Origin: Burkholderiaceae bacterium
GTDB lineage: Bacteria > Pseudomonadota > Gammaproteobacteria > Burkholderiales > Burkholderiaceae_E
Length of the DNA stretch: 64,000 nucleotides
Reading direction: 5' to 3'
Assembly: GCA_024637395.1 (NCBI GenBank)
Contig: JAGXFG010000027.1
Span: 1 to 64,000, forward strand
The notes beneath the pieces were generated by a model, which was not told where the DNA came from, ran no database searches, and saw only the letters and a list, made by a program, of their open reading frames with translations. The position numbers and the translations under genes are program-made. Of the stretch, positions 37,348-52,705 are shown one piece after another. How positions within the stretch are numbered: the stretch's first letter is position 1; every line of letters starts with the position of its first letter.

Positions 37348-37521
37348 TTATTCTTCCGTCCCCGGCGGGCGCGCGGCGGGCCGGTCATCGTCGAGCAGGA
37401 TGCGATGGCCCGGGCTCTCGAGATCGTCGAACTGTCCCGAGTCGCTCATGCGCAGGAACAGCCAGAGTGCTGCCGCCACGGCGAGCAGCGACAAGGGAAT
37501 CAGGAGGTAGAGGGCTTCCAC
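37348..37521 (-). CDS. ccoS: cbb3-type oxidase assembly protein CcoS
   Basis: This 57-residue protein starts at GTG, giving MEALYLLIPLSLLAVAAALW. One hydrophobic helix (about residues 4-23) is followed by the CcoS signature WLFLRMSDSGQFDDLESPGHRILLDDD. CcoS is needed for cofactor insertion into cbb3 oxidase. Its start overlaps the end of ccoI by 22 bases. Confidence 0.92.
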   Translation of the reverse strand: MEALYLLIPLSLLAVAAALWLFLRMSDSGQFDDLESPGHRILLDDDRPAARPPGTEE

Positions 37522-40067
37522 GACCACAGTGTAAGCGCGTTGCCCGCCACCAGCAGCGAGCTGCCCGCCATGCCGAGCGCCGCCAGCCAGGGCGGCACCA
37601 GGCCGCAGGCCGCCGCCGGAATCGCCACCAGGTTGTAGGCCAGGGCCCAGGCGAGATTCTGGCGCACCACCCTGAGGCAGCGCCGGGCCGTGGTCACCAG
37701 GTCGACCACGCCGTCGATCGAGGGCGTGAGCACGATGGCGTCGGCGGCCACCCGCGCCAGGGTGGTGGCGCCCCCAACCGCGACCGAGACGTCGGCCGCC
37801 GCCATCACCGGCGCGTCGTTGATGCCGTCGCCCACCATCAGCACCCGCGCCCCCTGTTGCTGCAACGTGCGCACGAACGCCAGCTTGGCGTCGGGAGTGG
37901 CCGCTGCGATCCAGCTCTCGATTCCCAGTTCGGCGGCGCAGCGTGCGACCACCGGTTCCCGGTCGCCCGAGGCGAGGTGGCTGCGCACGCCACTGCGCGA
38001 GAGCATCGCGACCAGGCCGGGCGCCTCCGGGCGCAGGCGGTCGCGCAGCGCAAACGAGGCCAGCAGTCGCGGCTGGCCATGGTCGGACGAACTGCCTGGC
38101 TCCTCGTTGCTGGCTGGCAGTTCGACCATGAAGACGGTGCTGTCGGCCTCCGGCCAGGTCGTTGCAGTTCCCGGATCCGTAGCCTTGGGCGACTCGATCC
38201 CGCACCACTGGGCGGAACCGAGCCGCAGACGCAGCCGGCGGCCGGCGCCGGTCACCAGCGTAGCTCCAACCCCCGCCCCGGGCTCGGCTACGCGCTCCAG
38301 CAGGGTGGCCGGGCTGGCCGCCGCGGTCTCGGCAAACGAGCCCGAGGCGGCTGCAAAATCCCTGATCGCCCGCGCAAACGGGTGGGCCGAGCCGTGTTCG
38401 AGGCGTGCCGCCCAGGACAGCGCGGCCGCGCGTTCGATGCCCTCGGCTAGCTCCAGCGCCACCACGCCGGGCGTGCCGGTAGTCAGTGTTCCGGTCTTGT
38501 CGAAGACGACGTCGGTGCAACTGGCCAGGGCTTCCAGCGCCGGGCCGCGGGTAATCAGCACGTGGCGGCGCAGCAGCGCGCCGCTGGCTGCAGCCAGAGC
38601 CGCTGGCGTCGCCATCGATAGTGCGCACGGGCAGGAGACGACCAGTACCGCGAGCGCGATAGGCAACGCCCGCGCCGGATCCAGCTGCCACCAGACGATC
38701 AGCACCGCCAGCGCCAGCGCCAGCAGGGCGGCAACGAACCAGCTCGCGGCCCGGTCCGCGAGTTGCGCGATCCGGGGCTTGTCCTGGGAGGCGCGTTCCG
38801 CGAGCCGCTCGATGCTCGAGAGCGTGCTCTCGGCCACCGGGCGCAACACCCGCAACGTGATTGGCGCCCCGGCGTTGAGCGCTCCCCCGGGAACTTCGTC
38901 GCCGCCCGCGCGCTGCACCGGCACCGATTCGCCGGTGAGCAGCGACAGGTCGACGCTGGTGCGCCCGGCGACGATGACGGCGTCGAGCGCGACGCGCTCG
39001 CCGCTGCCCACTTCGATCAGATCGTCGACCCGGACCCGCGCCGCCGGAACGGTCTCGGTAATGCCGCCAGGAGCTTCGCCGGGGAGCAGCCGCTGCACCT
39101 GTTCAGGAGCCGCCGCGGCCATCGCATCGAGTGCCCGCGCCGCACGGCGGCGGGCGATCCACTCGAGGTGGCGGGAACCCAGCAGCAGGAAGACGAACAT
39201 CGTCACCGAATCGAAATAGACCTCGCCGTGACCGCTGAGCGTCGCCCAGACGCTTGCGCCAAAGGCCACGGCGACGCTGATGGCCACCGGCACGTCCATC
39301 CCGGGCCGCAGCGCGCGCAGGTCTCTCAGCGCGCCGGCGAAGAACGGCTGCGCGCTGTAGAGCACCACCGGCAACGTGAGCACCAGGCTGGCCCAGTGCA
39401 GCAGCGTCGCGAAGCCGGACTCGATCTCGCCGGGGCCGGCAGTGTAGGCCGGGAAGGCGTACATCATCACCTGCATCATTCCGAATCCGGCCACGAACAG
39501 TCGGCGCAACTGTGTTCGACTGGTGCGTGCGATTGCCGCCTCGCGCAGGCGAACATCGAACGGGGTGACCTGGTAGCCGATCTCGCGGCAGCGCTCCAGC
39601 AGCCGCGACAGCGGCGTGCGTTCGGGATCCCAGCGCACCACTGCGCGCTCGGTGGCGAGGTTGACGTTGGCGCCAAGCACCCCGGGGACTCCAACCAGGG
39701 CGCGTTCGATCAGCCAGACACAGGCCCCGCAGCGCATCCCGTCAATTGCCAGCGTGGCCTCAAGGCAGGGGCCGGCGCCGGCCTCGGCGCTGCGGGTGAA
39801 GCGTTCCTGGAGCTCTGGTTCGTCGTAGATCGCCAGGCTGGCGAGTTCCGCTGGCACCACCGCAGCGCCCCGGGCCGGAGCGCTGCGATGGCGGTAGTAG
39901 TCGTCCAGGCCGGCGGCATGGATGGCTTCGGCGACCGCCGCACACCCGGCGCAGCACATCGGCCGGGCAGCGCCATCGATGACTGCGCTCCAGCTGCCCG
40001 AGCGTGGCAGCGGCTCGCCGCAGTGATAGCAGGATTCAGGGTTGGTTGGGGCGCTCACCTTGCTCAC
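37500..40067 (-). CDS. ccoI: Copper-translocating P1B-type ATPase CcoI (FixI)
   Basis: CcoI exports copper for CuB-site assembly of cbb3 oxidase. The 855-residue protein has an N-terminal cysteine-rich metal-binding region (CYHCG at 13-17 and CCAGC near 38-42). A heavy-metal-associated domain with GMRCGAC (C113, C116) follows, then eight helices with the transport motif CPC at 479-481. The phosphorylation site is D523 (DKTGTLTTG) and the hinge is GDGINDAP. The SafE-like gene overlaps its start by 32 bases and ccoS overlaps its end. Confidence 0.96.
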   Translation of the reverse strand: MSKVSAPTNPESCYHCGEPLPRSGSWSAVIDGAARPMCCAGCAAVAEAIHAAGLDDYYRHRSAPARGAAVVPAELASLAIYDEPELQERFTRSAEAGAGPCLEATLAIDGMRCGACVWLIERALVGVPGVLGANVNLATERAVVRWDPERTPLSRLLERCREIGYQVTPFDVRLREAAIARTSRTQLRRLFVAGFGMMQVMMYAFPAYTAGPGEIESGFATLLHWASLVLTLPVVLYSAQPFFAGALRDLRALRPGMDVPVAISVAVAFGASVWATLSGHGEVYFDSVTMFVFLLLGSRHLEWIARRRAARALDAMAAAAPEQVQRLLPGEAPGGITETVPAARVRVDDLIEVGSGERVALDAVIVAGRTSVDLSLLTGESVPVQRAGGDEVPGGALNAGAPITLRVLRPVAESTLSSIERLAERASQDKPRIAQLADRAASWFVAALLALALAVLIVWWQLDPARALPIALAVLVVSCPCALSMATPAALAAASGALLRRHVLITRGPALEALASCTDVVFDKTGTLTTGTPGVVALELAEGIERAAALSWAARLEHGSAHPFARAIRDFAAASGSFAETAAASPATLLERVAEPGAGVGATLVTGAGRRLRLRLGSAQWCGIESPKATDPGTATTWPEADSTVFMVELPASNEEPGSSSDHGQPRLLASFALRDRLRPEAPGLVAMLSRSGVRSHLASGDREPVVARCAAELGIESWIAAATPDAKLAFVRTLQQQGARVLMVGDGINDAPVMAAADVSVAVGGATTLARVAADAIVLTPSIDGVVDLVTTARRCLRVVRQNLAWALAYNLVAIPAAACGLVPPWLAALGMAGSSLLVAGNALTLWSWKPSTS

Positions 40068-40878
40068 TGCCGGTTAGCTGTTGGCCGCTGTGGTGGCCGG
40101 CGGTCTGGCCCATCGGGCCACGGCCGGGCAGCGGCATTCCCGTGAGACCGGTGCTGCGCACTACTCCCAGCACGCCAAACACCAGGATCAGCGCCCCTGC
40201 GGCGTGCCGCAGCCAGCCTGAACGCAGCCAGCGGGTCGAGCGCGATGCCGCCCAGCCGATGGCCAGCAGGTTGGGCAGGGTTCCGGCGCCAAAGGCGGCC
40301 GCCAGCAGTGCGCCGTCGGCGGCGCTGCCACTGGCCAGCGCCGCGACCAGCACCGCGTAGACCATCCCGCAGGGGATCAGTCCCCAGACCAGCCCAGCCC
40401 CCAGCGCCTGCAGCGGGCGGCGTCCGCGCAGGACGCGTGCGGCCAGCGGCGCCACCCGGCGCCACAGCGGCCGTCCGGCGCTTTCCAGCGCGCCCAGCGG
40501 CCGCAGGACGCCGAGCAAATAGAGCCCCATCGCGATCAGCGCGCAGCCCGCGAGGGCGAGCGCCAACTGCTGTACCGGTGCGACGTGGTTGGCGAACCAG
40601 GCCGCCGAGCCGACTGCACCGGCCAGCGCGCCCGCGGCGCTATAGCTCAGGACTCGGCCGAAGTTGTAGAACAACAGCCGCGGCCAGTCGGTTGCCTGGC
40701 CGGCGGCGGCAGTGTCGGCGGCGGCCACGATCCTGATCGGCTTTGCCGGCTCGGCCTGCCCCTGCGCGCGGCGGCCCGCCAGGACCACGGCGCCGACGAT
40801 CGGTCCGCACATTCCGGCGCAGTGGGCGCCGCCCAGCAGCCCCAGCAGGAATACCGACAGCAGAGACGCTTCCAGCAT
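40036..40878 (-). CDS. Sulfite exporter TauE/SafE-family (CcoI-associated) membrane protein
   Basis: This 280-residue polytopic protein begins with a helix and the motif HCAGMCGPIVGA (about residues 19-30), seen in TauE/SafE and DsbD-like membrane proteins found beside cbb3 genes. About six to seven hydrophobic helices follow, including ALGAGLVWGLIPCGMVYAVL. It is translated just before ccoI with a 32-base overlap. The cysteine motifs and location suggest a role in copper or thiol handling for oxidase assembly, as proposed for CcoI-linked relatives. Sulfite transport is unproven. Confidence 0.82.
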   Translation of the reverse strand: MLEASLLSVFLLGLLGGAHCAGMCGPIVGAVVLAGRRAQGQAEPAKPIRIVAAADTAAAGQATDWPRLLFYNFGRVLSYSAAGALAGAVGSAAWFANHVAPVQQLALALAGCALIAMGLYLLGVLRPLGALESAGRPLWRRVAPLAARVLRGRRPLQALGAGLVWGLIPCGMVYAVLVAALASGSAADGALLAAAFGAGTLPNLLAIGWAASRSTRWLRSGWLRHAAGALILVFGVLGVVRSTGLTGMPLPGRGPMGQTAGHHSGQQLTGSEQGERPNQP

Positions 40879-41035
40879 TGCACACGACCTTTGGCTGACT
40901 TTCCGCCGGCGCGACGGTTGCGCCGCGGAACTTTTGGGGCAGGATAGCCTAAACCGCTCGCTGATCGCGGGGCGGTGATCGGTGCCCGCACCGCGCTATG
41001 CTATGCGCTTCCGATCCGTGCTGGCGCCGCCACCA

Positions 41036-42115
41036 ATGACACCCCCAAGAACCCTCTGGCTTGACGATCGTTCCCGCGTCATGACGCTCGACCAGACCCG
41101 GCTGCCGTTCGAGCAGGTGACGATTGAACTCGATTCGCTGGAGAGTTGCCGCCACGCGATCCGTGCGATGCAGGTTCGCGGGGCGCCGCTGATTGGCGCC
41201 GTCGGCGCCTACGGGCTCGCGTTTGGCCTGCGCCGCGACGCCAGCGATGAAGCACTGCGCCAGGACTTCGCCGAGCTCCTCGCCAGCCGCCCGACCGCGG
41301 TCAACCTGCGCTGGGCGCTGCAGCGCGTGGCCGACCGGGTGCGGCCGCTGCCGCCGGGCGAGCGCTCGGCCGCCGCCTGGCTCGAGGCCGGTGTCATTTG
41401 TGAGGAAGACGTCGCCTGCAATCGTGCGATCGGCTCCCATCTGGCGGCGCTGCTGCGCGAGCAGGCGCTGCGCCGCGGCGGAGATCCGACTCGGGCGCTC
41501 GACGTACTCACCCACTGCAACGCCGGGCGCCTCGCGACGATCGCCTATGGCACCGCGCTCTCACCGTTCTATTTGCTCGACGAGATCGGTTTCCCGGTGC
41601 ACGTCTGGGTCGACGAGACCAGGCCGCGCAACCAGGGCGCCAGCCTGACCGCCTGGGAACTGGGGCAGGCCGGAGTTGCCCACACCGTGATCGCCGACAA
41701 TGCCGGGGGGCTGCTGATGATGCAGCGCCGGGTGGACGCGGTTATCGTCGGCTGCGACCGGGTCGCCGCCAACGGCGATGTCGCCAACAAGGTCGGCACC
41801 TACCTCAAGGCGCTCGCGGCGCATGCCCATGGCATCCCCTTCTACGTCGCCTGCCCGAGTTCGACGATCGATCTCGGCTCGGCTGATGCCGCGGCGATCG
41901 AGATCGAGGCGCGCGCCGGGCGCGAGCTGTCACACGTGAGCGGCCGGCTGCCCGACGGCACGATCGCCGAAGTGCAGGTGATCCCCGACGGTTCGGCCGC
42001 CTTCAACCCGGCCTTCGACCTGACCCCGGCGGCGCTGGTCACCGCGCTGGTCACCGAGCATGGTCCGATCCCGGCGAGCACCGCGGCGATCGCCGCGCTA
42101 TTTGCGGAGCACTGA
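41036..42115 (+). CDS. mtnA: S-methyl-5-thioribose-1-phosphate isomerase
   Basis: MtnA converts methylthioribose-1-phosphate to methylthioribulose-1-phosphate in methylthioadenosine salvage. The 359-residue protein has AMQVRGAPLIGAVGAYG (about residues 44-60), the catalytic cysteine in THCNAGRLAT and the catalytic aspartate in VGCDRVAANGDVANK. ETRPRNQGASLTAWEL is also typical. The start is uncertain: I use the ATG giving MTPPRTLWLDD, but an in-frame ATG at 41003 is possible and neither has a strong ribosome site. It is followed directly by a class II aldolase. Confidence 0.94.
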   Translation: MTPPRTLWLDDRSRVMTLDQTRLPFEQVTIELDSLESCRHAIRAMQVRGAPLIGAVGAYGLAFGLRRDASDEALRQDFAELLASRPTAVNLRWALQRVADRVRPLPPGERSAAAWLEAGVICEEDVACNRAIGSHLAALLREQALRRGGDPTRALDVLTHCNAGRLATIAYGTALSPFYLLDEIGFPVHVWVDETRPRNQGASLTAWELGQAGVAHTVIADNAGGLLMMQRRVDAVIVGCDRVAANGDVANKVGTYLKALAAHAHGIPFYVACPSSTIDLGSADAAAIEIEARAGRELSHVSGRLPDGTIAEVQVIPDGSAAFNPAFDLTPAALVTALVTEHGPIPASTAAIAALFAEH

Positions 42116-42116
42116 G

Positions 42117-42845
42117 ATGAGCGTAGCTGGCTTTGGCACCGGCGCCCCGGCATCGTCCCGGACCGGCCCGGAAACGGAACTCGCAGCCCGCACCGCGATC
42201 ATCGCGGCTTACCGGCGCGCCCAGGAGCTGGGCATCAACCAGGGCAGTGCCGGCAACGTATCGTTGCGCTGGCACCGTGGTGGCCTGACCGGGATGTTGG
42301 TGACACCGGCCGGACTCGGCGCCGACGAGCTGGGCGCCGCGGACATCGTCTGGCTGGGGCTCGACGACCCGCAGCCGGAAGCGGGGGCGCGCGCGCCGTC
42401 CTCGGAATGGCGGCTGCACCGCGACCTCTACCTGGCGCGCCCGGAATTCGGCGCCCTCGTTCACGCCCACTCGTCGTTCGCCGCCTCGCTGTCGTGCCTG
42501 CCGGCCGTGCAGGCGCAGGGCATTCCCGCTTTCCACTACATGATTGCGGTCGCCGGTGGCGACGACCTCAGGTGCTCGCGTTACGAGACCTTCGGCACCC
42601 AGGAGCTGTCCGCGGCCGTGGTTGCGGCGATGATCGGGCGCCGCGCCTGCCTGATGGCCAATCACGGGCAGGCCGCGGCTGGCGCCACTGTCAGCGCGGC
42701 GCTGGCGCTGGCGCTCGAAGTCGAGACGCTCTGCCGGATGTACGCCCAGGTGTGCCAGTTGGGCGCGCCGCAATTGCTCGATGCGGCTGAAATGGCGCGC
42801 GTGCGCGCGCGGTTCGCAGCACGGGCGGCAAGCGCCGGGACGTGA
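42117..42845 (+). CDS. Class II aldolase/adducin family protein, candidate methylthioribulose-1-phosphate aldolase
   Basis: This 242-residue zinc enzyme has the class II aldolase fold signature GSAGNVSLRW (about residues 43-52), an acid/base region SSEWRLHRDLY (Glu97) and zinc ligands H116 and H118 (VHAHSSFAA) plus H183 (ANHGQAA). The sequence resembles L-fuculose-phosphate aldolase more than MtnB dehydratase. Coming one base after mtnA, it could be MtnB, or the aldolase of the DHAP shunt that splits methylthioribulose-1-phosphate into DHAP and methylthioacetaldehyde. I favour the aldolase but cannot prove it. Confidence 0.8.
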   Translation: MSVAGFGTGAPASSRTGPETELAARTAIIAAYRRAQELGINQGSAGNVSLRWHRGGLTGMLVTPAGLGADELGAADIVWLGLDDPQPEAGARAPSSEWRLHRDLYLARPEFGALVHAHSSFAASLSCLPAVQAQGIPAFHYMIAVAGGDDLRCSRYETFGTQELSAAVVAAMIGRRACLMANHGQAAAGATVSAALALALEVETLCRMYAQVCQLGAPQLLDAAEMARVRARFAARAASAGT

Positions 42846-42877: not shown

Positions 42878-43669
42878 CTAGGAAGCGTCGTTGGCGTTGG
42901 CGCCGAGGATGCGCATGCGCCACCAGAAGACCATCACGGCAAGCAGCAGTAGCGCGGTCCCGTAGGCGATGCTCGCCGCCACCGGAAAGCCGACAGAGTG
43001 ATCGGTGAAGGCGCCGATCATGCTGACCTGCGAGGGCATGTGCGCCGGCAGCCACTGGATCACGAACTTGTTCTTGGACTCGGTGTAGAAGATCGGGTTC
43101 TGCAGCCAGGCAACGTCAATGTTGGTGAGTAGAACGATCGACAGCACGCCTTCGAGTTCGCGATGAAAGATCGATCCTGCCAGCAGACCGTAGCAACCGT
43201 AGACTGCGCCTACCAGCGCAAACCCCAATACCACCTGCGTGAGGTGTTGGGGCGAGAAGAACGTCAGCAGCAGCGCTCCCGAGAACAGGGCCACGGCAAC
43301 GATCGCGCAGCCGAGTACCGCGAGCCGCGCGACCACGATCTCCCACGATCGGTAGCCGCATAGCAGGAGTCGGCGGCTCACTTCGGTCTGGCGGCTGATC
43401 AGGTAGAAGCCCAGGAAGGCGCTGACGAACCCGACTGCGGCCAGACCCATGAAGACGATCGCCTCTTCGCGGCGACTCACTTCGATGATGGTGTCGCCCG
43501 AGACCGCGGCGAGCGTGAATGCCACGGGCGCGTCGGTGGTGGTGATTGCGATCAGCGCGTAGAACAGTACCGGCAGCAGCACGAACAGCGTGAGTGCAAT
43601 GCGGTTGCGCAGCAGCGTCATCGCTGTCAGCACAAATGCGGTGAGCAGGCGCGGCGCGGTGTTGCTCAT
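42878..43669 (-). CDS. ABC-2 type transporter permease in the acyl-metabolite cluster
   Basis: This 263-residue membrane protein has about six helices and a periplasmic or cytoplasmic loop between helices one and two, the layout of ABC-2 permeases. Its start overlaps the stop of the ATP-binding gene by four bases, so it pairs with that ATPase. It is the last gene of a seven-gene operon and probably exports the product made by the upstream enzymes. No close named family is recognised. Confidence 0.85.
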   Translation of the reverse strand: MSNTAPRLLTAFVLTAMTLLRNRIALTLFVLLPVLFYALIAITTTDAPVAFTLAAVSGDTIIEVSRREEAIVFMGLAAVGFVSAFLGFYLISRQTEVSRRLLLCGYRSWEIVVARLAVLGCAIVAVALFSGALLLTFFSPQHLTQVVLGFALVGAVYGCYGLLAGSIFHRELEGVLSIVLLTNIDVAWLQNPIFYTESKNKFVIQWLPAHMPSQVSMIGAFTDHSVGFPVAASIAYGTALLLLAVMVFWWRMRILGANANDAS

Positions 43670-44322
43670 GGCATTGCCTCCATCAGTTGACCGTCCCGCA
43701 ACTCGATCACCCGGTCAAACTCCGACCGGTCGTAGATCAAATGGGACACCACCAGGATGGTGGTGCCAGCGGCGCGCAGTTCTCGCGCCAGGTCCCAGAA
43801 GCGCTGGTAAGTGGCCCAGTCAAAGCCGGCGTACGGCTCGTCGAGCACCAGGATTTGGGGCTCATGCAGGAGTGCCACGGCGAGGTTCAGTTTTTGCCGG
43901 GTGCCCCCACTTAGCTTGGACACGAGCTGCGCCCGGTCGGCTGCAAAATGAAGCCGTTCGAGCAGGAACTCGGCGTGTGCTCGCCAGCGCGCACTGGGCA
44001 GGCCGTAGGCCGCAGCAAAGTAGCGGAAATTTTCGTCGACCGTGAGACCGTCCACCACGAGGGCGTCCTGGGGGCAATAGCCGATGCGGCCGTAACGCTC
44101 GATGGTGCCAGTCGTTGGTTGCAACAGGCCGACCAGGATCCGGAGCAGGGTGCTCTTGCCGGAACCGTTCTCACCCACCAGCCCCACCGTAACGCCCGGA
44201 GCCAGGTCGAGATCGACCTGGCTGAGCACCTGTCGTTTGCCGAATTTCCTGGACACGCCGTGCGCGGCGAGCAGACGGCCGCCGTGAGCGGCGTTAGTGA
44301 CCATGGCGGAGGTCGACGACAT
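43666..44322 (-). CDS. ABC transporter ATP-binding protein in the acyl-metabolite cluster
   Basis: This 218-residue ATPase shows Walker A GENGSGKST (about residues 50-58), the Q-loop in GYCPQDAL, signature KLSGGTRQK (about 136-144) and Walker B ILVLDEP. The compact size suits an ABC-2 exporter. I use the ATG at 44322, behind GGGAG; ATGs at 44304 and 44358 are alternatives. It overlaps the end of the BtaA-like gene and the start of the permease, so all are coupled. Its position after the biosynthetic genes suggests product export or self-protection. Confidence 0.87.
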   Translation of the reverse strand: MSSTSAMVTNAAHGGRLLAAHGVSRKFGKRQVLSQVDLDLAPGVTVGLVGENGSGKSTLLRILVGLLQPTTGTIERYGRIGYCPQDALVVDGLTVDENFRYFAAAYGLPSARWRAHAEFLLERLHFAADRAQLVSKLSGGTRQKLNLAVALLHEPQILVLDEPYAGFDWATYQRFWDLARELRAAGTTILVVSHLIYDRSEFDRVIELRDGQLMEAMP

Positions 44323-45514
44323 GAATACTCCCGTAGATGCCGGTGCGTTCGCGGGCATACAACTCCAGCGAGCGTTCCGGGTAAGACACCAGTACGTCCG
44401 TCAGAGCTATCTCGTGGCCGTCAAGCTGGACACGAATCGGCTCAAGGTAGCGAACTTCACGCGCTGCGCTGCGGAACACAATACGCGCGCCCTTGGGGCA
44501 GCGCGCCAGGATCGCCGACCATTCCTCAGCCAGGGCCGCGGGATCGTAGCCGCTCATCCAGTCCATATGATCCAGCAGCGAGAGTTTATCCACAGGATCG
44601 CTGCTAGCGCGCAGGAAGTCGGTGAGCGTGCCGGAATGCGTGAACAGGCGATCGATCAGCCCGGCCTTCAGACGGGCAAACTCGGTTTCCTTCAGGAACT
44701 CGGGACAACATTCGCGGGTGTACTCCCCTTCGAGCACCCCGCGCCAGAAGTAATTCTCGCGCAGCGGAGTTTGCGTGAGCGCGCGCTCGAGCGCGTCGAG
44801 TGCGTGGCCGGCGACGCCCCCAGGGTGGTGCGCCTCGATTTCGCGGCGCTGCTGCCAAGGAATGCCCAGCAAACTGAGCGCCAGCGGTCGCGCCACGAAC
44901 CAGCGCAACAGCGGCGTTCCGAAGCGCTTGCGAATCTGATGGCGAGCGTAGATCTCCCGCTGATCGGCAACCGTGGTTGCGCCCAGCAGCGCTGCTATCG
45001 CGTCCCCCAGCGCACAGGTCCGGTAGGCATAGTCGCGCAGCAGTTTGTGGACCAGGCCGGCACTGCCCTGGTACAGGAAACGTCGGCGCCAGCCGCGTCC
45101 GGCGAACCACTGCATGTGTCCGTCCCAGAACGCGCGCGCGGCATCCGACAATTCGCGGCGCAGCGCATCGTGGTAGATCTCGCTCCAGCGGGGCGACCAG
45201 CCGCCGCCGAACAACGCGAAGAAGTCGTCGTGTTGCAGGCCGCGGATCGCGGCGATGCGCAGTTCGAGTAGTGCCGTCTGCAGCGGATTCACGTCCACCG
45301 CATGGACTTCCCGCGCGCCAGCCAGCAACAGGTCAAGAGAGTTGCAGCCGCCACTGGTGATTGTCACCACTCGATCGCTCGGCTTGATTTCCAGTGCCAG
45401 GCGATCAACGGCGGGATCCTCGAAGCAGGCCACGTAGACCAACTGGTTGCGATGCACCAACCGGAACAGCGAGTTGCGCCAGTTCTCGGCAATTGGTGCT
45501 GTCCGGAAAGCCAT
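44294..45514 (-). CDS. BtaA-like SAM-dependent 3-amino-3-carboxypropyl transferase (DUF3419)
   Basis: This 406-residue protein has the DUF3419/BtaA layout. Its N-terminal segment reads RLVHRNQLVYVACFEDPAVD, with a SAM-binding region VVTITSGGCNSLDLLL (GGCN at about residues 55-58) and AVDVNPLQ (about 72-79). BtaA moves the 3-amino-3-carboxypropyl group of SAM onto diacylglycerol to make the homoserine lipid DGHS and releases methylthioadenosine. No BtaB methyltransferase lies nearby, so a betaine lipid is not the obvious product. The start touches the ketoacyl synthase stop by one base. The acceptor in this operon is unknown. Confidence 0.85.
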   Translation of the reverse strand: MAFRTAPIAENWRNSLFRLVHRNQLVYVACFEDPAVDRLALEIKPSDRVVTITSGGCNSLDLLLAGAREVHAVDVNPLQTALLELRIAAIRGLQHDDFFALFGGGWSPRWSEIYHDALRRELSDAARAFWDGHMQWFAGRGWRRRFLYQGSAGLVHKLLRDYAYRTCALGDAIAALLGATTVADQREIYARHQIRKRFGTPLLRWFVARPLALSLLGIPWQQRREIEAHHPGGVAGHALDALERALTQTPLRENYFWRGVLEGEYTRECCPEFLKETEFARLKAGLIDRLFTHSGTLTDFLRASSDPVDKLSLLDHMDWMSGYDPAALAEEWSAILARCPKGARIVFRSAAREVRYLEPIRVQLDGHEIALTDVLVSYPERSLELYARERTGIYGSIHVVDLRHGH

Positions 45515-46521
45515 CAGAACACCAGATCCAAGGCGCCGAGGGTAAGGCCGGCGCCGGTGCCCAGCATCAGGATGCGCTGGCCACGCTGCACCCGCCCCGA
45601 AGCGACGGCCTCGGAGAGCGCCAGTGGGATCGACGCCGAGATGGTGTTGCCGCGCTGCGCCAAATTGGTGATGACCTGAGCCGGCTTGAACCCGAAATGC
45701 TTGGTGAGGGATCGAATGCCGATGATGCTCGCCTGATGTGCAACCACCGTGTCGTAGTCCGAACGCTGGGCGCCGACGTCGGCGAAGAAACCTTCGATGA
45801 ATCGCGGCGCGGCGCGGCGCGCCAGCCGGACGATCGCCGGGCCGTTCATGTTGAACATATTCATCTCGGGGCGCGTCGTCGGGTCGTTGGGATGATGATC
45901 GGTACCGGCGCCCACAAACTGAGCCAGGTCGGCGCCGCTGTTGAAGGTCTGGAAGGCTGCATGATTCAGGCAACTGGCTTCATTCTCAGCACTCGGACGA
46001 ATCACGGCAGCCGCGGCCGCGTCGCCGAACAACAGCGCGCTCTCCGGTTCCTTGGGGTTGAGCGAGCGCGATGCCATCTCGCTGCTCACCAGCAGGGTCG
46101 CGCGACTGCGTCCGGTGGCGACCAACTGGCTCAACAGGTGCAGGCCGACCAGCCAGCTTAGACAGGTGGCGTCGATGTCGAAGCAGAAGCTGCGACCCTC
46201 GGGGCACTGCAGCGCGCGCTGAATGAACGCGGCGGTGCAGGGAATGAGCTGCTGGCGCGAGGTGGAGGCGGCAATGATGGTATCGAGCTGATCCGCTCTC
46301 GTGTCCGCCTGCTCGAGCGCGGCGTGGGCAGCGGCGCTCGCCATGCTGACGGTAGTGTCGCTGGCGCCAGCGTAGCGGCGTTCGATGACCCCGGTGCTGC
46401 GCTCGGCCCAGTCACCATCCACCCCGAGCTCGGTGGCGAGCTGGCGGGTGGTGACGCGGCGTGCGGGTAGATACGAGCCCAGGCCCGCCAGTCGGATTCG
46501 AAGCGGGGCCGCTGCTGTCAT
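45514..46521 (-). CDS. 3-oxoacyl-ACP synthase III (FabH-like ketoacyl synthase)
   Basis: This 335-residue thiolase-fold enzyme carries the KAS III triad Cys120 (DATCLSWL), His262 (VVAHQAS) and Asn292 (RGNTISAS). The N-terminal GLGSYLPARRVTTRQLA is FabH-like. Such enzymes condense an acyl-CoA with malonyl-ACP, or acyl chains head to head. It is embedded in the cluster with ATGA overlap to the upstream adenylating enzyme, so I infer a secondary-metabolite role rather than fatty acid synthesis; no fab genes adjoin it. Confidence 0.88.
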   Translation of the reverse strand: MTAAAPLRIRLAGLGSYLPARRVTTRQLATELGVDGDWAERSTGVIERRYAGASDTTVSMASAAAHAALEQADTRADQLDTIIAASTSRQQLIPCTAAFIQRALQCPEGRSFCFDIDATCLSWLVGLHLLSQLVATGRSRATLLVSSEMASRSLNPKEPESALLFGDAAAAAVIRPSAENEASCLNHAAFQTFNSGADLAQFVGAGTDHHPNDPTTRPEMNMFNMNGPAIVRLARRAAPRFIEGFFADVGAQRSDYDTVVAHQASIIGIRSLTKHFGFKPAQVITNLAQRGNTISASIPLALSEAVASGRVQRGQRILMLGTGAGLTLGALDLVF

Positions 46522-47855
46522 ATGGTTTCCTCGGCTGGAAGGCGCCTGACTCGGCGCAGTTTCTTGGTGGTAAACCGTTGGGGTTCGCCCGCCTCAATCA
46601 CCAGATCTGCGTCGGCTATTCCTTGCTCACGCAGCCCGGCCTCGATGGCCTTGCGCACGAGTGTCGCGACCGTGTTGAGCTCTGCCCCGGAAGCGAGGGC
46701 GAGCCGCACGCGCAGCTGCGAATCGCGTTCCTGGATCACCTCGTAGTCGCGCACCGCGCCACTGGCAAGCAACACCATGCGGCGGATCGTCGCCGGAAAG
46801 ACCGAGAGCAGCGACCCGTCGCTTGCGGCGAACCGGCAGACGTCATCGAGCCGGCCCTCGATGCGCTCGATCGTGCGAAAGCCGCTACCGCAGGAGCAGG
46901 CCTCGGCTGGGCAGAGAGCGAGGATGTCGTTCAGGCGGTAGCGGATGATTGGTTGCACCTGCCGCCAGAGGTCGGTGATGATCGGTGTTACCCGCTGCGA
47001 TTCCGCCGTCGCCTCAACCGACTCGGTCTGCACGACCACGAGGTCTTCCTGCAGATGTAGTCGTCCATTCTTGCAGCTGACGCCGATCAGGCCTTCCGTG
47101 CACTGATAGATCTGGTGTACTGCGCATGCGAAGCGCTCGCGCAGTTGCGTTTCGATTTGAGGCTCCAGGACTTCGGCCACTGAAATCAGGCGTTCCGGGC
47201 GGATGCGCAGTTCACCGGCGAGCTGGCGCTCGGAGAGTGCGTGCAAGTAGCTGGGCGGACCCGCCAGCAGGTCCGGAGGGTGCGAATTCAACCGCGTCAC
47301 GGCTTCGTCGATGGGGGTGGCCAGGTTGAAGTGTTGGAAGCTCAGCCAGCCGCGCTGCAGGCGCTGGTAGAGATTGCTGCCCGACATCGAAAAGAGCGTG
47401 ATTCGTACGCCGTGACGCCGGATGCGCGGCGCGACGCGCGCGACCACTGTCCCCGCCCAGCGCGCCTGTTCCTGTTCATCGATTAGAAACAGGCCGCGGT
47501 GGCCGGAGGTGCCCGATGACAGCCCCACCGTGAGGTCTCCCACGCGCGACCGGAAGTCGCGCGAACTCTCGGCCGCGAGGGCCGTCTCGAGCGCCGTTTC
47601 AAGCTTGACCTGGCGGGTGTTCAGGGTGGATAAGTTGGCCATCATGACGGCCTTGTCGATCGTCGGCAGCGTTCGCCAGCGCGTTGCGGGCTCGGCGCCG
47701 TAGAGTGCGGCGTAGAAGGGCGAGTGGCGCCGCGCGAAGCCTACGATCGATTGCGCACGACGATCCTGGTAGTCGGCGAGCGCCGCACCGTGCAGGCGAC
47801 GGAAGTTGTGTCGGGCGAGCCAGAAGGAATGCGCCAGCGCGAACCCAGGGCTCAT
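46518..47855 (-). CDS. CapK/F390-synthetase-like adenylate-forming enzyme
   Basis: This 445-residue protein belongs to the phenylacetate-CoA ligase/F390 synthetase-like branch of adenylate-forming enzymes. The phosphate-binding loop reads VGLSSGTSGHRG (about residues 110-121). Later segments include LISVAEVLEPQIE, IYQCTEGLIGVSC and the domain-hinge aspartate in RIEGRLDD. It should activate a carboxylate as an acyl-adenylate. The ATG at 47855 forms an ATGA overlap with the upstream hydrolase gene, consistent with the other junctions in this operon. The true substrate is unknown. Confidence 0.84.
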   Translation of the reverse strand: MSPGFALAHSFWLARHNFRRLHGAALADYQDRRAQSIVGFARRHSPFYAALYGAEPATRWRTLPTIDKAVMMANLSTLNTRQVKLETALETALAAESSRDFRSRVGDLTVGLSSGTSGHRGLFLIDEQEQARWAGTVVARVAPRIRRHGVRITLFSMSGSNLYQRLQRGWLSFQHFNLATPIDEAVTRLNSHPPDLLAGPPSYLHALSERQLAGELRIRPERLISVAEVLEPQIETQLRERFACAVHQIYQCTEGLIGVSCKNGRLHLQEDLVVVQTESVEATAESQRVTPIITDLWRQVQPIIRYRLNDILALCPAEACSCGSGFRTIERIEGRLDDVCRFAASDGSLLSVFPATIRRMVLLASGAVRDYEVIQERDSQLRVRLALASGAELNTVATLVRKAIEAGLREQGIADADLVIEAGEPQRFTTKKLRRVRRLPAEETI

Positions 47856-48670
47856 CGCCGCACCCATTGGTCGCGCACCTCGGGGCAATGGGTCGGGAAT
47901 ACGCGCAGCGCCGGGTTTGCCGCACTCAAAATCCGCAGCTTCTCGAGCGACGCGCGGGTCTGGCGGACGTCATCGACGATCAGCCGGGTCAGCCAGTGCG
48001 CGTCGCGCAGCTCGCGATATCCGCGTGATACCCAGCAGGCATCTGCCGACAGGAAGATCGGCCCGCCGACGGCCGCGACATGTGCGCCGATCTGGCCGCG
48101 GGCGTGTCCCGGCAGGGCGACGAGGCGAATCCAGCCATCCCCAAACAGGTCGTAGGTGCCGCCGAACGGTTCGAGGGGGCTCGCCAGGAATGAGTCGACG
48201 AGGGTCGTTCGGCTCGCGAAATCATCGGGCAGCAGGGCCGGCAGATAGGCCCGGAGCAACCCGCCGACACCGGGGCGCTCGCACACGTCCTCGTAGGCCT
48301 GGCGGGTAGCGATGAAGCGGGCCCGGGGAAAGTCGCGCAGGCCGGCGACGTGATCGGCGTGGAAATGGGAAATCACAATCCAGCGCACGTCGTCAGGCGT
48401 AATCCCGAAGCGCGCAATCTGTGTTGCTGCTGCCGACTCCACGGGGGCCGACATCGGTGTGATCCAACGGTAGATGCGATAGGGCATCGCCGCGGTTGCC
48501 TGGAGGATGCGCGGCGAGTAGCCGGCGTCAAACAGCCCCCAGCCGTGCAGCGGATGATGCATGAGGGCGACCATGCAGGGCACGTCGATCAGCCGGCGTC
48601 GCCCACCGCTCAGCAGATGGTGTTCCCACGAGCGGCAATGACCGGTGTCTAGCAAGTGAACCGGTATCAA
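47852..48670 (-). CDS. Metallo-beta-lactamase-fold hydrolase, lactonase-like
   Basis: This 272-residue protein has the metal-binding motif SHFHADHVAG (H102, H104, D106, H107), a further ligand in LPGHARGQIG (H189), D210 in LSADACW and a final His in FPTHCPE. This set is complete for a dinuclear metallohydrolase and resembles N-acyl-homoserine lactonase relatives. Translation probably starts at TTG overlapping the reductase stop (TTGA). In this operon it may hydrolyse or remodel a thioester, lactone or ester intermediate. Confidence 0.85.
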   Translation of the reverse strand: MIPVHLLDTGHCRSWEHHLLSGGRRRLIDVPCMVALMHHPLHGWGLFDAGYSPRILQATAAMPYRIYRWITPMSAPVESAAATQIARFGITPDDVRWIVISHFHADHVAGLRDFPRARFIATRQAYEDVCERPGVGGLLRAYLPALLPDDFASRTTLVDSFLASPLEPFGGTYDLFGDGWIRLVALPGHARGQIGAHVAAVGGPIFLSADACWVSRGYRELRDAHWLTRLIVDDVRQTRASLEKLRILSAANPALRVFPTHCPEVRDQWVRR

Positions 48671-49653
48671 GCGCCGGCTCCGGCGTCGGTGGCGCCCTGG
48701 AGCGCCGCCAGACTTGCTTCGAGTCCGCGCTCGAAGGGCATGATCGGCGTGTAGCCGAGGTCGCGACGGGCGGCGGCGATGTCGTAGGTCTGGTGGCGGC
48801 CCAGAATCGCGGCCGTGTAGCGCGTGAGCAATGGCTCGCCACCCGAAATACGCGCTGACAGCTCGAGCGTGCGGCCGATGCCGAGTGCCACCGCAATTGG
48901 AATTCGCCGCAGCTTCGTGTCCAGGCCGCAGTGGGCGAGAACGCGCCGAATCACCGGCCAGAGCTCGACGTGCTCGTCGTTGGTGATCGTGTAGGTGCCG
49001 CCAACCGCACGCGGCGCGTCGAGCGCCAGCGTGATGGCGTGCACGACATTTTCGACATAGGTGAGATCTACCAGGTTACGGCCATTGCCGATCTGGGGCA
49101 GCCGGCCGGCGCGTGCCGCGCGAACGAGGCGGGGCAGAAGGGCGACGTCACCTTCGCCGAAGATCGCCTTTGGGCGCAGGATCACTGCGTCGAGTTTTGC
49201 TGCGCGCACGCATTCCTCGGCGAGTCGCTTGGACCACGCATAGCTTGATGAATAGCGCCTCGGGTAGGGAACATCTTCGCGCGCGTTGACCTGATCGTTG
49301 CCGTCGAAAACAACCGCGGGCGACGAAATGTGAACCAGCCGGCGCACTCCCTGGCGCAGGCAGGCGGCGACGACATTGCCGGTACCCTCCACATTGGTGG
49401 AGAAGAACGCGCTGCGCTGTCCAAAAGGCGCTGACAGCGCACCGGTGTGGATTACTGCGGTTGCGTTCCGGCAGGCATCCGACACCAGTTTGCCATCACG
49501 CAAATCGCCGCGCACCACTGTGGCGCCGAGCGATTCGAGCAGGTCACAGCGGCTGGGATCGCGACCAACGGCGCGCACCGGCAGGCCGCGCGAGACGAGG
49601 TTGCGCACCATCGCCAGGCCAAGGAATCCGGTTCCACCGGTGACCACAATCAT
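48667..49653 (-). CDS. NAD(P)-dependent epimerase/3-beta-HSD-type reductase
   Basis: This 328-residue extended SDR has the nucleotide-binding TGGTGFLG (about residues 5-12), the middle motif HTGALSAPFG, and catalytic Tyr138 and Lys142 in SYAWSK. NVVHAITLALDAP lies late in the chain. It resembles the 3-beta-hydroxysteroid dehydrogenase class that includes OleD, which reduces beta-ketoacids. It is the first gene of the seven-gene operon, 184 bases after uvrA on the same strand, and overlaps the following hydrolase gene by four bases. Confidence 0.86.
   Translation of the reverse strand: MIVVTGGTGFLGLAMVRNLVSRGLPVRAVGRDPSRCDLLESLGATVVRGDLRDGKLVSDACRNATAVIHTGALSAPFGQRSAFFSTNVEGTGNVVAACLRQGVRRLVHISSPAVVFDGNDQVNAREDVPYPRRYSSSYAWSKRLAEECVRAAKLDAVILRPKAIFGEGDVALLPRLVRAARAGRLPQIGNGRNLVDLTYVENVVHAITLALDAPRAVGGTYTITNDEHVELWPVIRRVLAHCGLDTKLRRIPIAVALGIGRTLELSARISGGEPLLTRYTAAILGRHQTYDIAAARRDLGYTPIMPFERGLEASLAALQGATDAGAGA

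Positions 49654-49837: not shown

Positions 49838-52705
<2,868 letters not shown>

Follow-up and report, generated by a model that had tools for sequence, protein, structure and literature searches.

We describe a seven-gene operon from the draft genome (3.46 Mb) of a Burkholderiaceae bacterium, situated at 42878-49653 on the - strand of a 64,000-nt window, by which we mean the whole stretch of DNA analysed. The genes, lettered A to G in order of transcription, encode a reductase, a hydrolase, an adenylate-forming enzyme, a ketoacyl synthase III (KAS III), a protein of the BtaA-like transferase family and the ATPase and permease of an ABC transporter. The operon was gained as one block, probably by horizontal transfer. 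Moreover, its first four genes form a core that recurs widely in other bacteria, and the KAS III of this core groups with MxnB and CorB, the ketosynthases of the antibiotics myxopyronin and corallopyronin. Each enzyme comes from a known superfamily; what is novel is the gene combination, its spread, the link of the KAS III to MxnB/CorB and the insertion as a block. Our working proposal, plausible though with the balance tilted slightly against it, is that this acquired operon makes and exports a modified acyl compound by way of C, D, A and B, then E, then F and G.

Gene content and layout of the operon

All seven open reading frames (ORFs) of the original prediction are present on the - strand, and the start-stop overlaps it had reported are found at all six junctions: 4 bases at A/B, B/C and C/D, 1 base at D/E, 11 bases at E/F and 4 bases at F/G. 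The 'longer' overlap at the ATPase depends on the start chosen, as F may begin at an ATG at 44304, 44322 or 44358, the last two giving an E/F overlap of 29 or 65 bases.

Pfam and NCBIfam agree with the seven families as originally named. A (48667..49653, 328 aa) is an OleD-like short-chain dehydrogenase/reductase (SDR) of the 3-beta-HSD family (PF01073, 153.9 bits), and B (47852..48670, 272 aa, TTG start) is a metallo-beta-lactamase (MBL)-fold hydrolase (PF00753, 53.1 bits). C (46518..47855) is an F390-synthetase-related, PaaK-like adenylate-forming enzyme of 445 aa when read from the ATG at 47855, with a longer TTG start possible at 47888. Its sole Pfam match lies below the curated cut-off (21.6 vs 29.9 bits), and it exceeds the cut-off of NCBIfam TIGR02304 ('F390 synthetase-related protein'; 377.3 vs 251.9 bits). 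D (45514..46521, 335 aa) is a KAS III placed in the MxnB/CorB group by structure matches, trees and Foldseek. E (44294..45514, 406 aa) matches PF11899 (DUF3419; 324.2 bits, cut-off 28.2, scanned as a longer ORF reading) and is, with function assigned by family, a BtaA-like S-adenosylmethionine (SAM)-dependent 3-amino-3-carboxypropyl transferase. F (43666..44304) is an ABC transporter ATPase (PF00005, 103 bits in the shortest reading), and G (42878..43669, 263 aa) is an ABC-2-type permease whose sole Pfam match, to PF12698, is weak and below the curated cut-off (23.3 vs 31.6 bits). A promoter scan returned no sigma-70-like sites, against 1.0 expected.

Gain of the operon as one block

The operon lies between a class II aldolase gene on its left (42060..42845, + strand; PF00596, 150.1 bits) and uvrA on its right (49838..52705, - strand; NCBIfam UvrA, 1464 bits, cut-off 1147), neither of which is part of the system. 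We searched for the aldolase and UvrA proteins in twelve genomes, the window's own included. In 7 of the 11 other genomes the two genes are found tail-to-tail on one contig, too close together to fit the operon; the spacing is 140 bp in G003, 54 bp in G001, 20 bp in G005, 82 bp in G006, 123 bp in G008, 1.1 kb in G010 and 2.0 kb in G013. The two genes are on separate contigs in G002 and G012, and the protein search gave no aldolase match in G004 and G015. In nucleotide alignment, the match to the empty sites of G003 and G001 breaks off at about 42830-42839 and picks up again at about 49844-49851, with about 7.0 kb of gained DNA between the two ends. Since the gap between aldolase and uvrA is empty in relatives and filled by seven genes here, the block was gained as a unit.

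In the genome G001, of the same genus as the window, the site on contig C123 is empty and the operon lies elsewhere, on contig C63, whilst G002 and G003, also of this genus, gave no match to TIGR02304 at E 1e-30 or better. No junction repeats were seen in the empty-site alignment, although no systematic search for repeats was made. The GC content of the block (0.64-0.68) is not distinct from that of its surroundings (0.63-0.73).

Recurrence of the seven-gene set and of a four-gene core

A profile search of genome contigs with an alignment of C returned at least 563 loci, the best 80 of which were analysed. These loci were chosen by C, so the presence of C carries no weight in the co-occurrence counts. 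The full set A to D is found in 72/80. Among the eight incomplete loci, five reach a contig edge beside the core (L030, L035, L040, L043 and L048), two have no detectable B (L056 and L064) and one contains only C of the core (L032). The complete core is found under eight phylum labels: Chloroflexota, Thermomicrobiota, Armatimonadota, Acidobacteriota, Gemmatimonadota, Deinococcota, Bacillota and the window's own, the last by way of L020, a locus lying wholly inside L015, the G001 locus. Phyla are counted as labelled, Thermomicrobiota sometimes being placed within Chloroflexota. The core is also found in many cultured Paenibacillus and Brevibacillus species. Moreover, a TIGR02304 search of whole genomes (61 relatives, 369 genomes of the window's class and 297 of the phylum of L033) exceeded the cut-off in five genomes (G000, G001, G242, G429 and G496), with A to D nearby in 5/5. 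Of three genomes with matches below this cut-off, G424 has the core, and the stretches fetched from G006 and G401 contained none of the other genes.

The complete seven-gene set was found in two other genomes. In G001 all seven occur in unchanged order (50-64% identity), and so they do in an Acidobacteria metagenome-assembled genome (MAG; L033, palsa_289) at 37-52% identity; the order A-B-C-D-E-F-G on one strand is thus common to three genomes of two phyla. G shares 63% and 43% identity with its counterparts in these two operons. E and G occur in only 2/80 of the best loci, the same two in each case. A profile of G matched the window's own genome alone among 321 genomes of the class, a sample that did not include G001, and the other strong matches to a profile of E, where inspected, were DUF3419 genes without A to D nearby.

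As the arrangement recurs in other genomes it is not a matter of chance, and a chance run of unrelated genes was rejected given the two further seven-gene sets and the complete core in 72/80 loci. A widespread seven-gene unit was likewise rejected, given the 2/80 loci with E and G and the single genome matched by the G profile. Because E and G are confined to those two loci, what is general is the core of four genes, and the seven-gene form counts as rare in our sample. The original prediction had looked to conserved co-occurrence of all seven families as a check. This was borne out for the four core enzymes, and for the full set in two other genomes, but not for the seven genes as a general unit, the BtaA-like gene and exporter being rare beside the window. 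By its own account it also knew of no characterised pathway with this combination, and we too found none in the open-licence literature, nor any description of the core or of the seven-gene set. Most subscription journals lay beyond these open-licence papers and this negative is therefore not proof of absence.

The condensing enzyme D

By both sequence and fold the top solved matches of D are MxnB and CorB. With the single sequence, MxnB and CorB score 174.5 and 171.1 bits against 142.4 for the best FabH; with a profile the scores are 304.6 and 300.8 bits against 248.3 for the best FabH, 137.4 for PqsD and about 125 for OleA. A tree was built from 22 D proteins, MxnB, CorB and 12 FabH rows; in it MxnB/CorB and D stand together, apart from all FabH rows, with support of 100/100, and this group holds (90/86) when eight distant KAS III rows are added. 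MxnB and CorB branch inside D, beside the Bacillota type (94/93), although D as a single clade is not rejected (p-AU 0.181). The D proteins of the three seven-gene operons group together (96/95). An excerpt of PMC4578411 places MxnB and CorB within the FabH clade.

The triad Cys120-His262-Asn292 of D is invariant (75/75). D shares with MxnB and CorB a CLS-type motif, [TS]C[LIM]S, and the motif HQxS (Ser in 73/75, Asn in two), whereas C[AS]G and HQAN stand at these places in the two FabH chains compared. In place of the catalytic Glu of OleA (E117) and PpyS (E105), the 75 D proteins carry Ile (57), Leu (17) or Val (1), never Glu. MxnB and CorB also have a hydrophobic residue here, given as Val in an excerpt of PMC4578411. 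An AlphaFold model of D (mean pLDDT 87.0, 12 sequences) was submitted to Foldseek, which ranked CorB/MxnB first (32% identity over the alignment) with FabH close behind and PqsD among the structural matches.

Taken together, sequence and model support, but do not prove, that D is a chain-fusing ketosynthase of the MxnB/CorB group; the fusing role falls short of proof because the Cys-His-Asn triad is common to both types. MxnB and CorB fuse two acyl chains in myxopyronin and corallopyronin, and a review (PMC4901931) describes this reaction for CorB. The setting of these enzymes differs, however, in that MxnB and CorB, so far as the excerpted sources go, serve modular polyketide assembly lines, whilst D stands in a four-gene cassette with a reductase, a hydrolase and an adenylating enzyme. 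The alpha-pyrone-forming MxnB and CorB (PDB 4v2p and 4yuc) branch within or beside the D proteins of such cassettes (L016, L042, L070 and others), and the cassette D may be the source from which MxnB and CorB were recruited.

Core enzymes A, B and C and their joint inheritance

The predicted catalytic residues, which the original prediction had noted as intact where it could check, proved invariant, or nearly so, across related loci. The best NCBIfam model of A is OleD (247.7 bits, cut-off 580), which also ranks first for A of L070 and L021, with 253.8 and 265.1 bits in the two other lineages, and Ser110, Tyr138 and Lys142 are invariant (77/77). An excerpt of PMC7064751 describes OleD as reducing the OleA condensation product; it therefore makes chemical sense for a fusing KAS III to be paired with an OleD-like enzyme. 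The best NCBIfam model of B is an AttM-type lactonase (83.9 bits, cut-off 390), its Pfam matches being to the MBL fold only. The HxHxDH motif is present in 78/78 B proteins and the full zinc-ligand set (HxHxDH, His, Asp, His) in 77-78/78 per position. At the position of the lactonase Tyr, which follows the Asp of DAxY and is present in the four solved chains compared, B carries Trp (Trp213) in 74/78 and Tyr in 4/78. The substrate of B is most likely a thioester or a lactone, and PqsE, an MBL-fold thioesterase in the excerpt of PMC9241726, is a precedent.

The A, B and C trees split into the same two groups (SH-aLRT 100, 97 and 100). One group contains Bacillota and loci of the window's class from outside the window's genus (L016 and, in the B tree, also L018); the other contains the window, G001, Chloroflexota, Armatimonadota, Acidobacteriota, Gemmatimonadota and Deinococcota. 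Rows under the score threshold are missing from these trees (L018 from A and C, L064 from B). The D tree shows the same split at 94/95 and 94/93, with MxnB/CorB on the Bacillota side. This shared split is as joint inheritance of A, B, C and D predicts, and it sets the window's copies apart from other members of its class. Whether the three seven-gene operons form a single clade is neither shown nor rejected by the A, B and C trees (p-AU 0.502, 0.379 and 0.606). In C itself, what we take to be the ANL-family motifs, namely the P-loop, YQxTEG, TD, RxR..D and the C-terminal Lys, are conserved in 77-80/80 loci.

The BtaA-like protein E and the exporter

E belongs to the Pfam family DUF3419, which we take to be the family of BtaA; the comparison took in no characterised BtaA, and 'BtaA-like' rests on family and neighbouring genes. 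Beyond the operon, E is closest to DUF3419 proteins from its own order (42-47% identity). In this nearest clade a methyltransferase-like ORF directly follows in 10/14 loci by an automatic rule and by eye (Pfam-confirmed in four), and the same rule finds one in 7 of the 17 rows of a more distant DUF3419 group. E falls outside the clade of btaAB-like relatives (97/94). In 3/3 seven-gene operons E is directly followed by the ABC ATPase gene, and none of the three has a BtaB-type methyltransferase beside E. The head group is therefore predicted to be plain homoserine. When an AlphaFold model of E (mean pLDDT 89.7) was compared with the PDB by Foldseek, no match reached E 0.001 or better, and there was only a weak resemblance to SAM methyltransferases.

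In the window's order, strong E-type DUF3419 matches (>350 bits) were observed in 17/300 genomes, the window's own excluded (L149-L168), with a methyltransferase-like ORF following in 10 of the 13 such loci examined. Given how frequent this pairing is, homoserine or betaine lipids may be commoner in the order than assumed.

The pair of ABC ATPase and ABC-2 permease is kept in all three operons, the counterpart of F starting at the first base after the end of E in G001 and just after E in L033. Pairs resembling F-G were also detected with the G profile in 9/251 Chloroflexota genomes, at about 50% and 30% identity and with F beside G in 9/9 (L203-L211, L214-L220). Seven wider stretches read around these pairs contained neither core nor E, and a weak SDR match lies near one of the other two pairs (L205). 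As such pairs exist alone in Chloroflexota, the F-G exporter is a module that could be recruited.

Genes around the core

The core stands bare, as D-A-B-C with nothing between, in three Ktedonobacter-type loci (L021-L023, L021 being that of Ktedonosporobacter rubrisoli) and in the G242 locus. Within 3 kb of the core and on its strand, 54/57 Bacillota loci carry an ATP-grasp gene (59/83 over all loci), 34/57 a gene for a GNAT-like protein (35/83) and 33/57 a short-chain dehydrogenase gene (34/83). Bacillota loci usually run D, ATP-grasp, A, B, C, followed by the GNAT-like gene, the dehydrogenase gene or both, as identified by Pfam on examples. Two Herpetosiphon loci have a glycosyltransferase gene between C and D, and E-F-G is present in the window, G001 and L033. 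Around this constant core the candidate head-group gene differs (ATP-grasp, glycosyltransferase or E). Model names give no product for these proteins; in L042 the ATP-grasp passes NCBIfam PRK06849 ('hypothetical protein') and D passes PRK07204 ('beta-ketoacyl-ACP synthase III').

Two fusions were observed amongst these loci. In a Deinococcales MAG (L039, 5894-8194) the ATP-grasp and GNAT-like proteins are one ORF of 766 residues, which suggests that the two act jointly. In an Armatimonadota locus (L031, 7224-9983) an ATP-grasp-like protein and a PLP-dependent (PALP) enzyme share one ORF inside the core, between B and C, possibly another head-group variant.

Proposed pathway and alternatives

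The reactions that we infer for the operon, with their order, substrates and exported product, would run as follows. C would activate a carboxylic acid as its adenylate, and D would carry out a Claisen condensation with the activated acid or with a second acyl thioester, giving a 3-oxoacyl chain, probably through chain-to-chain fusion. The OleD-like A would reduce the 3-oxo group to a hydroxyl, B would release the chain by thioester cleavage or lactone opening, E would add a homoserine head and F-G would export the compound, such that all genes would serve one acyl-derived product.

Several points weigh against this proposal. The operon encodes no carrier protein, and the hydroxyl acceptor for E is a guess, as E could act on diacylglycerol like BtaA. 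Support for the three operon E proteins as one clade is weak (52/67), so that E may have entered the operon on more than one occasion. D could still use malonyl-acyl carrier protein, since FabH-type enzymes share its Cys-His-Asn triad, and the Foldseek margin is small (query TM 0.88-0.91 for CorB/MxnB vs about 0.85-0.90 for FabH).

The proposed logic is the same as that of OleABCD, with a condensing thiolase-fold enzyme, an OleD-type reductase (A being nearest to OleD), ATP-using acid activation and a hydrolase. However, the OleA Glu is absent from D (0/75), the OleD score of A falls well short of the cut-off, C resembles PaaK/F390 enzymes and the hydrolase B is of the metallo type. No homologue of OleB, an alpha/beta hydrolase, is found among the operon genes, B having the MBL fold and the other six matching other families. 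No Ole model is among the NCBIfam matches of C, the presence of an OleC model in NCBIfam being unchecked. In an excerpt of PMC7064751 the catalytic Glu is present in all but two of the OleA proteins aligned. A canonical OleABCD or lipstatin-type cluster was rejected on the missing OleA Glu, the missing OleB-type hydrolase and the low OleD score of A.

The main rival to our proposal is a Pqs-like route, which we consider rather unlikely. Here C would convert a starter acid into its CoA or carrier thioester, which D would extend by decarboxylative condensation with a malonyl thioester, B would be a PqsE-like thioesterase and A a reductase, and the resulting small signal or antibiotic would be tailored and exported by E and F-G. 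An acid-activating ligase, a KAS III and an MBL-fold hydrolase are indeed common to the operon and the alkylquinolone signal system PqsA-PqsD-PqsE, matching it in kind, with PqsA presumably the counterpart of C; C has adenylate-forming motifs and PqsD is among the structural matches of D. PqsE is, moreover, an MBL-fold thioesterase (excerpt of PMC9241726). Yet D is far nearer to MxnB/CorB (304.6/300.8 bits) than to PqsD (137.4), and lactonases lead the 37 sequence matches of B, none of which is a chain named PqsE. The operon also has an extra reductase and SAM transferase and lacks a counterpart of PqsB/PqsC. The second rival would divide the operon, with E an ordinary BtaA acting on diacylglycerol, F-G flipping or exporting the homoserine lipid and A to D making an unrelated compound, the two halves being merely co-transcribed. 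This fits the identity of 42-47% between E and same-order DUF3419 proteins that mostly stand beside a methyltransferase, as in BtaA-BtaB synthesis of the betaine lipid diacylglyceryl trimethylhomoserine (DGTS), and it fits the absence of E and G from 78/80 of the best C loci and the Chloroflexota exporters without a core. We nevertheless judge it improbable, as the A-to-G order on one strand is kept in three genomes of two phyla, the block was gained as a unit, and E differs from BtaA-BtaB in lying outside the same-order, btaAB-like clade (97/94) and in having no methyltransferase gene beside it, an ABC exporter coming next instead.

A catabolic or quorum-quenching role, in which B would open acyl-homoserine lactones, C would activate the freed fatty acid and the remaining enzymes would degrade it, must also be weighed, as N-acyl homoserine lactonases (AttM, AiiA, GcL) are the nearest curated relatives of B, are by profile among its nearest solved ones and are its best curated models, and B has the full zinc set. 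Against this, B scores under the family cut-offs and has Trp for the lactonase Tyr in 74/78 proteins. The condensing enzyme and reductase beside B suggest building rather than degrading, E would by its family spend SAM to add a group, and ABC-2 is an exporter type. Such a role is very improbable.

Flanking genes

To the left of the operon, mtnA (S-methyl-5-thioribose-1-phosphate isomerase; TIGR00512, 381.9 bits, cut-off 279) and the class II aldolase gene adjoin it at 40982-42845 (+ strand). E would release methylthioadenosine, the salvage of which MtnA helps. This proximity may be a coincidence, since the aldolase and uvrA genes adjoin in relatives without the operon there. Further left (37500-40878, - strand) are genes for a heavy-metal P-type ATPase (TIGR01525, 483 bits) and for a membrane protein without an NCBIfam match, which look to us like genes of cytochrome cbb3 oxidase assembly.

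Conclusions

In summary, the seven genes of this Burkholderiaceae operon entered together at a site that is empty in relatives, and they include a four-gene core. Among the proteins that we encountered, none is closer to the ketosynthases for the RNA-polymerase antibiotics myxopyronin and corallopyronin than the KAS III of this core. A broader hypothesis, speculative and taken whole doubtful, is that the core represents an undescribed but widespread pathway which fuses two acyl chains in the manner of MxnB/CorB to give a reduced, branched hydroxy-acyl skeleton. Each lineage would add its own head: ATP-grasp would attach an amino acid, a glycosyltransferase a sugar and the BtaA-like enzyme homoserine. 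On this view the compound made and exported by the window's operon would be a phosphorus-free homoserine lipid of a new class, and MxnB/CorB would represent a specialised branch of the pathway that antibiotic synthesis had taken over. The core spans eight phyla as labelled, yet the NCBI model names of its parts are uninformative. Moreover, if the operon works as we propose, SAM would supply a homoserine head to a lipid that is not built on glycerol.

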